From: Chloroflexota bacterium
GTDB lineage: Bacteria > Chloroflexota > Dehalococcoidia > CAUJGQ01
DNA: 32,442 nucleotides
Direction: 5' to 3'
Assembly: GCA_963170165.1 (NCBI GenBank)
Contig: CAUJGQ010000121.1
Coordinates: 1-32,442, forward strand
In this document: in pieces, positions 1,947 through 31,659 of the stretch
Layout of the letters: every line of letters begins with the position of its first letter
How positions within the stretch are numbered: position 1 is the first letter of the stretch
Notes under the pieces: generated by a model
The model's database searches: none
Told to the model about the DNA's origin: nothing
Seen by the model: only the letters and a program-made list of their open reading frames with translations
Program-made: the position numbers and the translations under genes

Positions 1947-2726
1947 TCACGCAATGCCGGCCGTGACAAATAGGTAGTCGCCGTCTGCGTGCCGCGCGGA
2001 GCGTATCACGTTCTCAATCTCACCCGTGGCGATATCGCCTTCCAACCGGCGAAGCCCGGCGTCAACCTCATCCGGCGCCGCCGTCGCAAAGGACGAGATG
2101 CCCGCGCGTACCTGCGGGTCAAGGTACCGTTCCGGCCGGTGCTTGCCGCTGTACAGGAACAGGTCTTGCAGATCGGGGCGCACCTCGTAGCGTTCATGCG
2201 CTATGGCGCCGAATCCGGCTGTCAGCAGGGCAGCATCGATGCTTGCGATAGCGGGCATCTGCATCGCCGCCCGCTCGATCAGCGTGGGGAAGTAATGCCG
2301 CAGCCACATGCCGCGGGTCTGTTCCGGCGCGCTGGTGAACAGCACGAACCGGCCGCCACGCAGCACACGCCGCACCTCGGTGAAGACCGGTACCAATCCC
2401 GGGAAGTGGTGCAGCGCCAGCGTACACACGGCTCCATCGTGCGACCGTTCGCGCAGCGGCAGCGACGCGCCATCGGCCAGCACCAGGGCTTGGCCGGCCT
2501 GCGCCTTAGCAGCGGCAACGCTGATCATGCGCTGCGCGATATCGACGCCGGTCATCACCAACCCGGCCGCGGCCAGCCCGGTGGTGTAGTTGCCCGTGCC
2601 ACAGGCGACATCCAGACAGGTAGCACCGGCCTCTAGACCCAGCAGCGCCCGCAGCCGCGAGAGCAGGTACGGGTCGGCACGGCGCGTGCGGTCATAGTCA
2701 AGGCCGATGTGGTTGTACAGCGCCAT
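1947..2726 (-). CDS. Class I SAM-dependent methyltransferase
   Basis: A 259-residue Rossmann-fold methyltransferase of the UbiE/Methyltransf_11 type. SAM-binding motif I is CLDVACGTGNY (residues 37-47). The acidic end of strand 2 is MTGVDIAQRM. Motif II/III is SHDGAVCTLALHHFPGL and the post-motif is VRRVLRGGRFVLFTSAPEQ. The substrate cannot be read from the sequence. The ATG at 2724-2726 has GAGGTGG upstream. An alternative ATG at 2739-2741 overlaps the preceding stop as ATGA and would add five residues. It lies between the acyl-CoA dehydrogenase-like gene (11 nt away) and the LLM oxidoreductase, suggesting one operon working on one small molecule. Confidence 0.88.
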   Translation of the reverse strand: MALYNHIGLDYDRTRRADPYLLSRLRALLGLEAGATCLDVACGTGNYTTGLAAAGLVMTGVDIAQRMISVAAAKAQAGQALVLADGASLPLRERSHDGAVCTLALHHFPGLVPVFTEVRRVLRGGRFVLFTSAPEQTRGMWLRHYFPTLIERAAMQMPAIASIDAALLTAGFGAIAHERYEVRPDLQDLFLYSGKHRPERYLDPQVRAGISSFATAAPDEVDAGLRRLEGDIATGEIENVIRSARHADGDYLFVTAGIA

Positions 2727-2737
2727 CGCCCGCCACC

Positions 2738-4000
2738 TCATGAACCAGCCGGACCGACCAGTGTGATCGGCAGTCCCAACGCGCCGCGACCGAGCACCTG
2801 TACCAGTTCGTCGGTCTTCCAGGCCATGACGACACCGCCCATCATGTCGCGGGCGATGCGCTCCAGCGGCCGGGAGCGTACGTAGGCATGGGCGCCGCAC
2901 GTCTTCATGGCGCCCAGCATCACATCCTCAACCATCCGCCGCAGGTGGTACACCGTGCGGACGAGGTGACGCGTGAATGCCTGCGCACTGGGAAATGGCG
3001 TATCTAGCCGCGCCACGGTGTCATAGAGGAGGCTGCGGCCCGTCTCAAGCCAGTGCTCCATGTGACCGATTGCCCCCTGAGCCCAGCCTTGCTCGGCGCG
3101 GTAGGTCGCCGGCGCCCCAAGCGTAGCGGCCTCGCCCGCCAAAAAACCGTGCCGCTTCTGCACGTACTCAACCGTAAAGTCAAACGCCGCCTGTGCCAGC
3201 CCCAACCAGATCGCCAGGATGCCGAGCGTACCCAGCGAACGGCGCTGGCTCTGGGCGGACACCTGGTTCTGCAACGCCTCAAACACCGCGCGGATCATCG
3301 GCAGCGGCAACACCAGCGCGGCAGAGCGCGGCAGCACCAGGCCCTCGATCTCGATGTCGTGGCTGGCCGTGGCGCGCATCCCCATCGCATCCCAGTTGTG
3401 CTGCAACTTGACGCCGGGCGCGTCCATGCGTGGAAAGGCGAAGACCAGGTCAGGATCGTTGGGCTTGCCCTCGGCGTTCAGGCCGCGGTCAATCACCGCG
3501 CCGCAGAACAAGTACGCCGCCCCTTCACTCATCGAGGCGAATCCTGCCCGGCCGCTGATGACCAGGTCCGGGCCCTGCTCGACGGCGCGATAGCCGGTCG
3601 TGCGGTTGTCAAGCTCGCCGGTGGGGATGGAACCGGGAGCGCAGAGCAGCGCACCGTTGCGGGCGATATCCTCCAGCACGGCGTTACGGCTCGGGAACGG
3701 CGGCAAGGTAGACACGAGATCGGTGCCGATACGGTGCATGTTCAGCGCCACGGCGGTGGAAGCATCGCCGTAGGCAATCTCCTCCATCACCCGCATCTGC
3801 GCCAAGGGGGAGAGCCCGAGTCCGCCCTGCTCGGCCGTGAGCGACAGCCCGGCGAGTCCCAGACCCCGCAGCTGCTCGATATTGGCGGCGGGGAAGCTGC
3901 CATCACGGTCGTGCGCGGCGGCCCGTCCGGCGAAGTCATCGCGCGCCAGCGACCGCACCTGCTCCACCAGCGCCTGTTCCCGCGCGTCGATCATCAGCAT
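2738..4000 (-). CDS. Acyl-CoA dehydrogenase-superfamily flavoprotein
   Basis: A 420-residue flavoprotein with the ACAD fold. The helical N-terminal domain carries GLAGLSLTAEQGGLGLSP. The middle beta domain carries WDAMGMRATASHDIEIEG (about 203-220). The C-terminal four-helix region carries GAHAYVRSRPLERIARDMMGG. Normal dehydrogenases end this helix with an Ile-(Tyr/Phe)-Glu-Gly-Thr motif near the active site; here it reads VMAWKTDEL, so the common catalytic/anchor pattern is missing. That resembles DszC/HsaA-type monooxygenases or atypical members, but function is open. The ATG at 3998-4000 is supported by GGGAGGGAAG 6 nt upstream; the frame extends to 4120 without a ribosome site. It is first of the minus-strand three-gene operon and divergent from the PLD lipoprotein gene. 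Confidence 0.85.
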   Translation of the reverse strand: MLMIDAREQALVEQVRSLARDDFAGRAAAHDRDGSFPAANIEQLRGLGLAGLSLTAEQGGLGLSPLAQMRVMEEIAYGDASTAVALNMHRIGTDLVSTLPPFPSRNAVLEDIARNGALLCAPGSIPTGELDNRTTGYRAVEQGPDLVISGRAGFASMSEGAAYLFCGAVIDRGLNAEGKPNDPDLVFAFPRMDAPGVKLQHNWDAMGMRATASHDIEIEGLVLPRSAALVLPLPMIRAVFEALQNQVSAQSQRRSLGTLGILAIWLGLAQAAFDFTVEYVQKRHGFLAGEAATLGAPATYRAEQGWAQGAIGHMEHWLETGRSLLYDTVARLDTPFPSAQAFTRHLVRTVYHLRRMVEDVMLGAMKTCGAHAYVRSRPLERIARDMMGGVVMAWKTDELVQVLGRGALGLPITLVGPAGS

Positions 4001-25359: not shown

Positions 25360-25435
25360 ACCGCTTCCGTGTGTGCGGCGCCGCCTGCTGCGCTATGATG
25401 GGCTGCGCGGCGTTGGAATAGGTCGGAGGGGAGTC

Positions 25436-26464
25436 ATGATCCGTCGGCTCAGCCTGCCTGCGGTGTTGCTTGGTGCGGTCCTGCAATTGGCCGGCCTGAT
25501 GGTTGACGCGGTGCTCCACGGACGTGACGCCACGCTGGCGCAGCGCGAAGGGGTGCTCACGCTCGCTAATCCCGGCCACCTGCTGTTCGCCCTCGGTCTG
25601 TCGCTGTGCCTGGCCGGCGCATGCCTGCTTGTCCTGGCGCCATTGCTGTCCCGGCAGCGCCGCCGCGCCGGTGGGGCAATACTGGCGGTGGCGCCGGTGG
25701 CCGCCGTTGCCACGCTGGCGATCGCGGCGTTTGTAGTGGTTGAGCGCAGTGGCGGCCTGTCCGGCCACCAGCATGACACCGCTGCCTCTGTCACGGACCA
25801 TGGGCACGACGCGGAGGAGCATGCCGGCGCCGCCGGTGATCCGAACCACAACCACGCCCACCCGGACGCTACCGGTGGCGCCACCGCTGCCACCCTCGAC
25901 GCTGCCGCGCACCAACACGGCAACGAGGTCAACATCAGCTGGGAACAGATCCGGCAGATCGACGCATACCTCGTCGCGGCCAAGGCTGCTACCGAGAAGT
26001 ACCGCGACGTGCGGCTGGCACGGGCCGACGGCTACCGGCAGGTAACGCAGAACGTGCCAGGGCTGGGGGCACACTTCACCCACGCTGGTCTGCTGGCCCA
26101 GGGCACCTTCGACCCGGAGCGGCCGCAGATCCTGCTCTATGACCAGCTGGCAGACGGCAGCTTCGAGCTGGTCGGCGTCAGCTGGGCGCTGCCCAAGCGT
26201 CCCGGTAACGATACGCCACCCTTCCCGTACTTTGGCAAGCTTGCCACCTGGCACTACCACACGAATCTGTGCTTTGGCGCCCGCGCCGGTTCCCCCGTGG
26301 TGGCAATCAGCACACCCGAAGGTTGCCGGGCGGCGGGTGGCGCCCACGTCAAGGAGACGCCCTGGATGGTGCATGCCTGGCTGTTCCGCGAGAGTCCGGA
26401 GGGTGTGTTCAGCCACGAGAACAGCACGATCAAGGGCACACAGCCGCTGGCTGCCAGCCGCTAG
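25436..26464 (+). CDS. Membrane protein with His-rich linker and uncharacterised conserved-looking C-terminal domain
   Basis: A 342-residue protein with three predicted N-terminal helices (about 8-27, 45-70, 80-102). A linker at 110-161 holds twelve His residues (HQHD, DHGHD, NHNHAHPD, HQHG) and could bind Cu, Zn or Ni. The C-terminal 170 residues probably fold outside the membrane. They carry regularly placed His/Cys residues: GAHFTHAG (213, 216), TWHYHTNLC (273, 275, 279), Cys297, His304, His313 in WMVHAWLF and His327. This layout recalls domains of unknown function seen in exported proteins of other phyla, but I cannot name it. The ATG at 25436 has GGAGGGG upstream. The K+ channel lies before it and a lipid kinase after. 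Confidence 0.78.
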   Translation: MIRRLSLPAVLLGAVLQLAGLMVDAVLHGRDATLAQREGVLTLANPGHLLFALGLSLCLAGACLLVLAPLLSRQRRRAGGAILAVAPVAAVATLAIAAFVVVERSGGLSGHQHDTAASVTDHGHDAEEHAGAAGDPNHNHAHPDATGGATAATLDAAAHQHGNEVNISWEQIRQIDAYLVAAKAATEKYRDVRLARADGYRQVTQNVPGLGAHFTHAGLLAQGTFDPERPQILLYDQLADGSFELVGVSWALPKRPGNDTPPFPYFGKLATWHYHTNLCFGARAGSPVVAISTPEGCRAAGGAHVKETPWMVHAWLFRESPEGVFSHENSTIKGTQPLAASR

Positions 26465-26555: not shown

Positions 26556-27620
26556 ATGGCCGGTCAGGCTTGCATGATCGTCAACCCGGTGGCGCGAACG
26601 CTGCCGTCTCCGGACCGGCTGGCGACCGCGCCCGCCTGGTTACGGCTGCGCGGCTGGAGCGTGCAGGAGCGGTGGACCGAAGCGCCCGGCCATGCCCAGC
26701 GACTGGCGCGCGAGGCGGCTGCGCGTGGCTGTGAGGCCGTGATCGCCGTCGGTGGCGACGGCACGATCAATGAGGTGATCCACGGCCTGGCCGGTACCAA
26801 GACGGCACTGGCGGTGATCCCGGCAGGCACCGCCAATGTCTGGGCGCGCGAGGTGCAACTACCCCGCCATCCCGCCGCTATCGCTCGCTTGCTTGAACAT
26901 GGCGATGTCCACGAGGTGGACCTGGGTACGGTCAACGGTCGCTACTTCCTGCTGATGGCCAGCCTGGGAGTCGATTCGATTGTCGTGTCAGCCATCGAGC
27001 CCTGGGCCAAGCGCACCTTCGGCCGGGCAGCATACGTCACCCGCGGGCTGCGGGAGGCTGCGACATTTCCCGCGGTCGAGGCGCTGATTGATGTAGACGG
27101 CGAGCGCATTCGGGCCAATCTCCTGATGCTCGTGGTGGGGAACACGCGGTCATACGGCGGCGCACTCAAGATCACCAACCGTGCCATCGCTGACGATGGA
27201 CAGCTTGACATGGTGCTGTACCGCGGCTCCGGCATCGGCCGGTTTGCCGGCTACCTGGCGCGGACCGTGATCGGCAGCCACGTTCAGGCAGCGGGAACGT
27301 TGTACCGCGGCGCGCGCAGCATCAACATCGAAACCGCCAGACCGCTGCCGGTGCAGGTCGACGGCGATGTGATCGGCGAGACACCCGCCAGCTTCGGTGT
27401 GGAGCGCTGTGCGTTGCGGGTCATCGTCCCGACCGGGTTGCGCTCGCCCCTCTTTTACCGGCAGCCGCTGGCGCGCGGCGCCTTGGCTGCGGGAACCGCT
27501 GTCCCAGGCTCAAGCGCAAGTGTGGCGCCCGTCGGGATTACGGGCTCTGGGACACAGCCGGAGCCGTCTCGGCCGCATCCGATCCCTGGTCGCCGGCGGC
27601 GGTCCCGCCGGTCGGGGTAA
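26556..27620 (+). CDS. YegS/BmrU/DagK-family lipid kinase
   Basis: A 354-residue kinase of the diacylglycerol kinase catalytic-domain family. It phosphorylates a lipid hydroxyl such as that of diacylglycerol, probably at the inner membrane face. The start ACMIVNPVART is the classical first strand. The nucleotide motif is AVIAVGGDGTINEVIHGL (GGDGT at 66-70), followed by LAVIPAGTANVWAREV. The C-terminal domain has VGNTRSYGGALKITNRA and the late VQVDGDVIGETP. The last 50 residues are Gly/Pro/Arg-rich and probably disordered. The ATG at 26556 or 26574 could be used; neither has a strong ribosome site. The 3' end overlaps the convergent recF gene by 83 bp. Confidence 0.9.
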   Translation: MAGQACMIVNPVARTLPSPDRLATAPAWLRLRGWSVQERWTEAPGHAQRLAREAAARGCEAVIAVGGDGTINEVIHGLAGTKTALAVIPAGTANVWAREVQLPRHPAAIARLLEHGDVHEVDLGTVNGRYFLLMASLGVDSIVVSAIEPWAKRTFGRAAYVTRGLREAATFPAVEALIDVDGERIRANLLMLVVGNTRSYGGALKITNRAIADDGQLDMVLYRGSGIGRFAGYLARTVIGSHVQAAGTLYRGARSINIETARPLPVQVDGDVIGETPASFGVERCALRVIVPTGLRSPLFYRQPLARGALAAGTAVPGSSASVAPVGITGSGTQPEPSRPHPIPGRRRRSRRSG

Positions 27621-29878: not shown

Positions 29879-30568
29879 GTGAAGGTGCTCGTGGTGGATG
29901 ATGACGCCGCCGTCCGCGATCTTGCGGGCACATATCTGCGCCGCGAGGGATATACCGTCTTGACCGCGCGGGACGGTGAAGAGGCGCTGCGACGTGCACG
30001 TACGGAATCGCCCGAGCTGGTACTGCTCGATCTGATGCTGCCCGTGCTGGACGGCTTTGAAGTGTGCCGGATGCTGCGGGCCGAGTCGGACGTACCGATC
30101 ATGATGCTGACCGCGCGAGGAGACGACATCGACAAGGTCGTGGGCCTCGAGATCGGCGCCGATGACTACCTGACCAAGCCGTTCAACCCGCGGGAACTGA
30201 TCGCCAGGGTGAAGGCGATTGCCCGGCGCGCAGCCCGAAAGGAACGGCCCAGGACCGTTATCCAAGCCGGCTGCCTGGTGGCGGACCGTGCGCGACGCGA
30301 GGTGCGGGCGGGCGACGCGCCGGTTCACCTGCGCGCCAAGGAGTTTGACCTGCTGGTGACCTTCCTGGAGCACCCCGGCCTGGTACTCACGCGTGAACAA
30401 CTGCTGGCGGATGTATGGGGCTACACCATCCCCGGCCAGACGCGAACGGTGGATGTCCACGTCAATCACCTGCGCCAGCGGCTAGCGGGCACCGGCGTCG
30501 AGATCGCAACACTGCGCGGCGTCGGCTACAAGCTGGTCATTACCCGTGCCACCGGTGCTCCTGCATGA
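29879..30568 (+). CDS. OmpR/PhoB-family response regulator (no adjacent kinase)
   Basis: A 229-residue two-domain regulator. The receiver domain has the acidic pair Asp7-Asp8, phospho-acceptor Asp51 in LVLLDLMLPVLDG, the switch Thr in MMLTARGDD and Lys in YLTKPFNPREL. The C-terminal winged helix carries LRAKEFDLLVTFLEHPGLVLTREQLL, VHVNHLRQRL and GVGYKL, typical of the OmpR class. The GTG at 29879 is used because it begins the receiver strand and follows GGGGGTGA; an earlier in-frame start at 29801 is less likely. No histidine kinase gene is next to it. Its stop overlaps the start of the dehydrogenase gene (ATGA), so the two are translationally coupled. Confidence 0.93.
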   Translation: MKVLVVDDDAAVRDLAGTYLRREGYTVLTARDGEEALRRARTESPELVLLDLMLPVLDGFEVCRMLRAESDVPIMMLTARGDDIDKVVGLEIGADDYLTKPFNPRELIARVKAIARRAARKERPRTVIQAGCLVADRARREVRAGDAPVHLRAKEFDLLVTFLEHPGLVLTREQLLADVWGYTIPGQTRTVDVHVNHLRQRLAGTGVEIATLRGVGYKLVITRATGAPA

Positions 30569-31659
30569 CAGCTGACGAACCGATCCTGGCCTATCGCTTC
30601 CTGCCGGTGGACAGCGTGCACCATGGGGATGGGGCTGCCGTTCGGCTACCGCACGAGCTGGACCGGCTGGGCCTGCGCCGGGCGCTGGTGCTGACGGGCA
30701 ACAGCCTCGCCAATGAGACGGGCCTGCTGTGGTACGTCGAGCATCTTCTCGGCCCGCGGCACGCGGCCAGCTACTCCGGAGTACGCGCCCATGTCCCATC
30801 GGGCGTGGTGGACGAGGCGGCCGAACTGGCCCGACTGGCCGGTATCGACTGCCTGGTTAGCCTGGGCGGCGGCAGCGCCACCGACACGGCGAAGGCCGTC
30901 GCCCACCGGCTGGCGCAGCAAACCGGCGCTCCGCCACCGGCCATCGCCGCCCTCCCGACGACGCTGTCGGCGGCGGAGTTCACGCACTACTACGGCGTGA
31001 CGGACGAGGCATCGCATGCCAAGCACGGCGCCGGCGATCGCTCGCTGGTTCCGCGGGTAGTCTTCCTTGACCCGCGGCTGACGCTCGCCACACCGCTGCA
31101 ATTGTGGCTATCCACCGGCATCAAGGCGCTCGATCATGCTATCGAGGTCTATCTCAGTCCGCGGGCCCACCCGGTGACCGATGTACTGGCGCGTGAGGCG
31201 ATCTCGCAGCTATTTCGCTGGCTGCCGGTCTGCCATGCTGAGCCGGAGCGCCTCGACGCTCGGTTGACCTGCCAGCTCGCTGCGTGGATGTCGCTATTCA
31301 GCCCCGCCACCGTTCGCGGAGGTCTCAGTCACGCGGTCGGGCACCAGCTCGGCGGACACGGCGTCCCCCATGGCATCACATCCTGTGTCACCTTGCCACA
31401 GGTGTTGCAGGCGCTAGCCCCAAGCGCCGGCCAGCGTGCGGCCGAGCTGGCGGCAGTGATGCAGTCCGCCGGTGCCAGCGAAGCCACCGCCGCTGCCGCC
31501 GTCAGCGGCCTGGTTGCACGACTCGGCCTGCCGGCCAGGCTGCGCGATACGGGTCTGCCAGCGGAGGCGGTCGCGACGGTGGCTGGCGCGGCCGCACTCG
31601 AGCTTGGCGCCCGCGCGGGCGGCATCGACCTCGCAGAGCTCGTGCATCGCATGTGGTGA
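30565..31659 (+). CDS. Iron-type alcohol dehydrogenase / maleylacetate reductase-like enzyme
   Basis: A 364-residue NAD(P)-dependent oxidoreductase of the DHQS-like superfamily. The dinucleotide-binding segment is SLGGGSATDTAKAVA (about 99-113), followed by ALPTTLSAAEFT. The second half carries LSTGIKALDHAIEVYLSPR and GLSHAVGHQLGGHGVPHG. In classical iron alcohol dehydrogenases the first of these reads Gly-x-Asp-Ala-Leu-x-His; here the Asp is Lys, as tends to vary in maleylacetate reductase-like members, so metal use is doubtful. Maleylacetate reductase acts in chlorinated or hydroxylated aromatic breakdown, but no ring-cleavage gene lies here. The ATG at 30565 overlaps the regulator's stop. 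Confidence 0.86.
   Translation: MTADEPILAYRFLPVDSVHHGDGAAVRLPHELDRLGLRRALVLTGNSLANETGLLWYVEHLLGPRHAASYSGVRAHVPSGVVDEAAELARLAGIDCLVSLGGGSATDTAKAVAHRLAQQTGAPPPAIAALPTTLSAAEFTHYYGVTDEASHAKHGAGDRSLVPRVVFLDPRLTLATPLQLWLSTGIKALDHAIEVYLSPRAHPVTDVLAREAISQLFRWLPVCHAEPERLDARLTCQLAAWMSLFSPATVRGGLSHAVGHQLGGHGVPHGITSCVTLPQVLQALAPSAGQRAAELAAVMQSAGASEATAAAAVSGLVARLGLPARLRDTGLPAEAVATVAGAAALELGARAGGIDLAELVHRMW

Follow-up and report, generated by a model that had tools for sequence, protein, structure and literature searches.

A membrane-anchored Chloroflexota protein with a His-rich linker and a widespread outer domain carrying a putative four-His, two-Cys metal site

Results

The gene and its surroundings

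The analysed window is a 32,442-nt stretch of Chloroflexota DNA (contig CAUJGQ010000121.1), and the gene under study occupies positions 25436..26464 of its forward strand, from an ATG at 25436 to a stop codon ending at 26464, encoding 342 aa. These coordinates and the reading frame had been given correctly in the initial annotation, and the open reading frame, its translation and relatives in other genomes show that the gene is genuine. The product comprises three membrane helices, a His-rich linker and a C-terminal domain (Table 1).

Table 1. Positions of features in the window gene, and of loci pairing a DUF5602 gene with a plastocyanin-type gene
Feature	Position	Strand	Basis
Shine–Dalgarno-like sequence GGAGGGGAG	25425..25433	+	just 5' of the ATG; read from sequence
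Three membrane helices, aa 9-27, 49-67, 84-102	25460..25741	+	hydropathy, AF2 helices
His-rich linker, aa 103-164, 10 His	25742..25927	+	pLDDT <50 in 106-152
C-terminal domain, aa 165-342, helix plus strands	25928..26461	+	AF2 pLDDT 91.2, pTM 0.87
H213, conserved (Glu in L054, L055)	26072..26074	+	alignments
H273 and H275 of WHxHxxxC	26252..26260	+	45/45 anchored-type rows; absent in 13 short exported proteins
C279, conserved, likely disulfide partner of C297	26270..26272	+	alignment
C297, conserved, probable disulfide	26324..26326	+	alignment
H313 of (L/V)H(V/A)W, conserved in both groups	26372..26374	+	alignments
DUF5602–plastocyanin locus	L067:3878-4812
DUF5602–plastocyanin locus	L068:3896-4842
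DUF5602–plastocyanin locus	L069:3887-4818
DUF5602–plastocyanin locus	L070:3878-4815
DUF5602–plastocyanin locus	L073:2899-3830
DUF5602–plastocyanin locus	L074:2926-3857

Both neighbours lie on the same strand. On the 5' side, 76 nt separate the gene from that of a TrkA_N/Ion_trans_2 potassium channel; on the 3' side, a YegS-type lipid kinase gene begins after ~90 nt, with its start assumed at the ATG at 26556. Co-location with metal genes was not borne out, as no metal gene lies beside the window gene and its flanks are this TrkA-type channel and lipid kinase. Around 26 relatives, none of the 25 families displayed (of 135) was a Cu, Zn or Ni family; placement beside copper genes, a mark of copper-binding extracytoplasmic proteins, was thus seen neither at the locus nor among these displayed families. 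The displayed families also gave no conserved neighbourhood beyond closely related records. Acyl-CoA dehydrogenase, carboxylase, MscS and UvrD families recurred in the relatives' loci, largely, it seems, from closely related Tepidiforma-type records. This comparison used 116 of 135 ORFs from a crude caller (19 mostly short or overlapping ORFs were dropped), and the focal gene itself was uncalled in five of the 26 loci.

Membrane topology and the His-rich linker

The three membrane helices described in the initial annotation were recovered by hydropathy, and the AF2 helices of this part (residues 2-30, 46-78 and 85-108) agree with them. Most Arg residues of the membrane part are N-terminal or in the loop joining helices 2 and 3 (68-83), which by the positive-inside rule suggests that the N-terminus is inside and that the linker and C-terminal domain face outward. 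An outside location of the domain is well supported and is the feature common to all its architectures; relatives have Tat-like, signal-peptide or lipobox starts (read by eye), and Pfam TAT_signal matched one of 13 relatives. The three-helix part weakly matched DUF998 (PF06197; E 0.001), its 19.2 bits falling below the gathering cut-off of 30 and hence short of membership.

The linker had been credited with twelve His residues, whereas our count is ten. When the protein's own composition was shuffled, some 62-aa stretch held at least ten His in 282 of 20,000 shuffles, so that the cluster in the linker carries modest weight by itself. The clustering is real, not extreme, and conservation is the stronger evidence. 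Overall His content is 5.6%, against 0.7–2.2% in seven of eight other window genes checked and 4.9% in the remaining one, an ORF at 30565-31656 which by eye resembles an iron-dependent alcohol dehydrogenase.

A His-rich linker is common to many relatives, with the positions of its His not kept; in 22 of 26 proteins measured, a set that counts the window protein, His made up a larger fraction of the linker than of the remaining sequence. Three relatives (L049, L052, L054) have linkers of 0–4 residues lacking His, yet retain the HxH pair, the Cys pair and the last domain His, hence the linker His are not essential. The linker of a fourth (L051) also lacks His, and the same domain residues are kept.

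Conserved residues of the C-terminal domain

The initial annotation had placed at least six His and two Cys at regular places in this domain. Residues 165-342 do contain seven His and two Cys, but only four of the His (H213, H273, H275 and H313) are conserved. Nine residues are invariant in a 28-row alignment of the window protein and 27 relatives, namely G199, Y235, W272, H273, H275, C279, C297, G302 and H313, with H213 kept in at least 90% of rows. Among the motifs listed earlier, the His and Cys of WHYHTNLC, the His of WMVHAW and the first His of HFTH proved conserved, but FSHEN (H327) and the second His of HFTH (H216) did not; H304 is also unconserved, and part of the family has a His at or adjacent to H327. 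The earlier observation was real, its His count slightly wrong, and the fixed His/Cys pattern that it had described in the outer domain stands as H213, H273, H275, H313, C279 and C297.

This four-His, two-Cys core is most likely a metal site. Two Chloroflexota relatives (L054 and L055) have Glu in place of H213 while keeping HxH and H313, possibly a swap to another metal ligand.

Fold model and searches of curated families

AF2 run on the 28-row domain alignment gave a confident model with a long helix followed mostly by strands (Table 1). H213, H313 and the S249 column fall within strands, and H273 and H275 at or just before short strands (domain residues 49, 149, 109 and 111 for H213, H313, H273 and H275, respectively). 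The conserved His are accordingly on or beside strands of the fold, rather than scattered through it.

Foldseek against PDB and BFVD returned no match at E <= 0.001, a missing match not being the same as a new fold. The top VIA-align row was 3vg8, TTHB210 of Thermus thermophilus (Z 3.7, 2.8 A, 77 of 105 residues, 22% identity), tied with the next row, the cytochrome c' beta 7s5o (Z 2.9, 6% identity), and the 3vg8 fold match is therefore weak alone. By sequence, the best PDB match had E 0.04, with short, chance-like matches.

The domain had been described as unassigned, and curated libraries agree. It had no match in Pfam (window protein, 10 relatives, 13 short relatives and 28 alignment members), NCBIfam (window protein and 10 relatives) or PHROGs (window protein), and membership of a known non-metal family, which would have spoken against the earlier proposal, was rejected on these searches. 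A search of phages gave one tblastn match of 44% coverage, in an unannotated record.

Distribution and sampling of relatives

The domain defines a family that is widespread yet undescribed, with relatives in Chloroflexota, Actinomycetota, Proteobacteria and haloarchaea. It was found in 25 of 301 genomes of a phylum sample and, by profile, in 30 of 245 genomes of a class sample, some with several copies; both counts include the window's own genome. Four of 40 near relatives had a match, among them the sole member of the window's family on that list. A scan of named genomes yielded 27 loci with titles from Chloroflexota, Actinomycetota, Deltaproteobacteria and, singly, others such as Holophagae. 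The domain also occurs on plasmid records of Limimaricola, Neorhizobium, Ensifer, Gemmatirosa and haloarchaea, the annotated ones reading 'hypothetical protein'.

The domain follows three helices, a longer membrane part or an apparent signal, Tat or lipobox start. The longer membrane part of L008 matches DUF7475. In a second domain copy in the window's own genome (L084:1420-2985), the membrane part is likewise longer, and judged by eye there are fewer His ahead of the domain. Four loci of one family in the same class (L079, L080, L081, L082) carry two or three tandem domain copies, each preceded by what we take, by eye, to be a dockerin- or EF-hand-like repeat, and the tandem copies directly adjoin apparent nuoM/nuoN respiratory genes (by eye).

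Relatives L032-L058 were fetched with patterns demanding WHxHx[ND]LCF or the last His, and the invariance of these residues there is therefore partly built in. Relatives from the phylum sample were fetched without such patterns and contribute 17 HxH relatives to the alignment, 18 rows with the window protein. For the pooled alignment, 24 of 29 phylum-sample relatives were taken and five near repeats (L013, L015, L016, L028, L029) dropped, which also show WHQH with Cys; seven further places had no locus, and Ensifer (L071) and Gemmatirosa were left out. Three row pairs (L004/L040, L007/L052, L008/L050) stem from equally long contigs and are probably the same records, making the 45 HxH rows at most 42 independent ones. 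Among 13 further copies in L078-L083, WHxH followed by Cys was present in 12, the exception being an L082 copy (2441-3022) that ends early and lacks the HxH part.

A short exported sister group with exchanged residues

Profile comparison joined the anchored proteins (A5) to a group of short exported proteins (A6) with an hhalign value of 99.5% and E 3.7e-23, so that the two are, by sequence, one family. In the pooled 68-row alignment, HxH was found in 45/45 anchored-type rows, 27 of which had been fetched with patterns partly demanding these His and 18 of which were unselected, and Glu at the S249 column in none of the 45. The 13 distinct short proteins were the reverse, all having this Glu and none HxH; the two never occurred together in the rows compared. 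H313 was kept throughout both groups (45/45 and 13/13), and H213 in 43 of 45 anchored-type rows (Glu in the other two) and 12 of 13 short proteins; L062 lacks it. Mutual exclusion of HxH and Glu is what one would expect from a swap of metal-site ligands, and it is the best argument for a common metal site; even so, a difference between two clades at these columns could have other causes.

The TTHB210 link and hints of copper

The gene of plasmid pTT27 that carries the NCBI label DUF5602 and lies beside sigma and anti-sigma genes is taken to be TTHB210, and its product matched PF18197 ('Hypothetical protein TTHB210') in Pfam. No PF18197 match at the gathering score was found in the window protein, 10 relatives, 13 short relatives or 28 alignment members, nor any match in 151 genomes of the phylum. 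By profile–profile comparison, homology to TTHB210 was detected only through the sister group. Alignment of A6 with an eight-row DUF5602 alignment (A8) scored 44.1 (E 2.6e-6, 75 columns), a score reached by none of 200 column shuffles (best shuffle 21.9), much of this strength leaning on the T. oshimai member L072. Direct comparisons with A8 were weak (A5, E 0.0042, 52 columns; A1, E 0.0025, 39 columns). With a narrower, five-row DUF5602 alignment (A7), the A5 score was reached by 0/200 shuffles at a probability of 9%, and the A6 score by 2/200.

The T. oshimai protein has His, Glu and PHYDIH in register with the short exported relatives. Of the eight DUF5602 rows, only L072 has H213 and the Glu, both being absent from TTHB210 itself and from six of the seven others; most of these rows have neither ligand set. 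On balance, the profile comparisons suggest that the window family is a distant branch of the TTHB210 superfamily missed by the Pfam model. Literature searches for TTHB210, DUF5602, TTHB210-like and PF18197, and one on Thermus sigma-E, found nothing, and among the matches listed by a further search nothing concerned this protein.

Two observations bear on the identity of the metal. Segments rich in Met and His precede the domain in L045, L047 and L048 (9, 6 and 11 Met). In addition, at all six alphaproteobacterial plasmid loci examined, the DUF5602 gene overlaps a plastocyanin/azurin-type gene by 1–4 nt (Table 1), a link to copper that comes from DUF5602, hence from distant relatives only. The plastocyanin-type product of L067 matched Copper-bind with E 1.5e-12, and the other five are 45–77% identical to it. 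No plastocyanin-type gene is annotated at two Thermus loci. Together, the Met/His-rich segments and the gene overlap would favour copper. In L073 and L074, a sigma factor gene follows the pair.

Discussion

The reading we prefer, with middling confidence, is that the protein holds a membrane-anchored extracytoplasmic domain that binds a single transition-metal ion, for which copper is the best guess; metal, binding and job are all inferred. The metal site would be made of H213 on a strand, H273 and H275 on a loop leading into a strand, and H313, also on a strand, with a probable C279–C297 disulfide pinning the H273/H275 loop. The flexible His-rich linker might act as an arm of low specificity, collecting metal close to the site. 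A likely job would be metal handling on the periplasmic or wall side, or a redox step that depends on the metal and takes place on the outer face. The initial interpretation, a metal sensor, store or enzyme outside the membrane, is thus partly supported.

Alternatively, the four His could serve catalysis or ligand binding on the outer face with no metal involved, through acid–base chemistry or by binding a small molecule, the linker being incidental. We think this unlikely. It would suit the invariant or near-invariant W272, Y235 and W315 that accompany the His, the lack of adjoining metal genes and the relatives without a linker, but exchange of HxH for Glu and of His for Glu at position 213 suits metal ligands, and linker His richness recurs in many relatives. 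If the protein stored or buffered zinc or nickel, binding would fall to the linker and the domain would be a docking or scaffold module, as the ten His in a mostly disordered stretch of 62 residues and their enrichment in 22 of 26 proteins might suggest. Against such a role, which we judge quite unlikely, the linker His are not conserved in position and are absent from L049, L051, L052 and L054, while the domain of these proteins retains HxH, both Cys and its last His.

Of the jobs proposed, that of sensor is the least supported. If the domain sensed a metal and the three helices relayed the signal to a partner in the cytoplasm, for instance the product of the neighbouring K+ channel or lipid kinase gene, the two close, same-strand neighbours would make sense, but the protein lacks a cytoplasmic signalling domain, no neighbourhood shared by relatives beyond closely related records was seen among the families displayed, and exported proteins without these helices also carry the domain; we regard this explanation as very improbable.

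Extending the preferred reading of an extracytoplasmic metal site, the bacterial and haloarchaeal proteins might represent a new metal-dependent class with one fold and two ligand sets, His-His-His-His in anchored proteins with HxH and His-Glu-His in exported ones, working at the cell surface alongside copper electron carriers, either as oxidoreductases or as partners in copper handling. We think this broader proposal unlikely.

The domain is present in many environmental bacteria and haloarchaea, and the annotated plasmid records seen label it 'hypothetical protein'. With a defined four-His/two-Cys site, an apparent natural ligand exchange between two groups and a connection to an orphan crystal structure, its function is open to direct testing, and if the pairing of DUF5602 with plastocyanin reflects a partnership, it would offer a functional clue for the TTHB210 superfamily.

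Compared with known systems, the three-helix part is weakly like DUF998, which only one of 28 alignment members matches. The short exported relatives (e.g. those on Haloarcula, Neorhizobium and Limimaricola plasmids) have the same domain, with export signals read by eye, but differ from the window protein in having Glu for S249, no HxH, no three-helix anchor and other Cys positions. The TTHB210-like family has a PGLG/PGMG core and an LV-V-x-M/Y strand in common with the window family, whereas TTHB210 itself is small and without membrane helices, His linker or WHxHxxxC.
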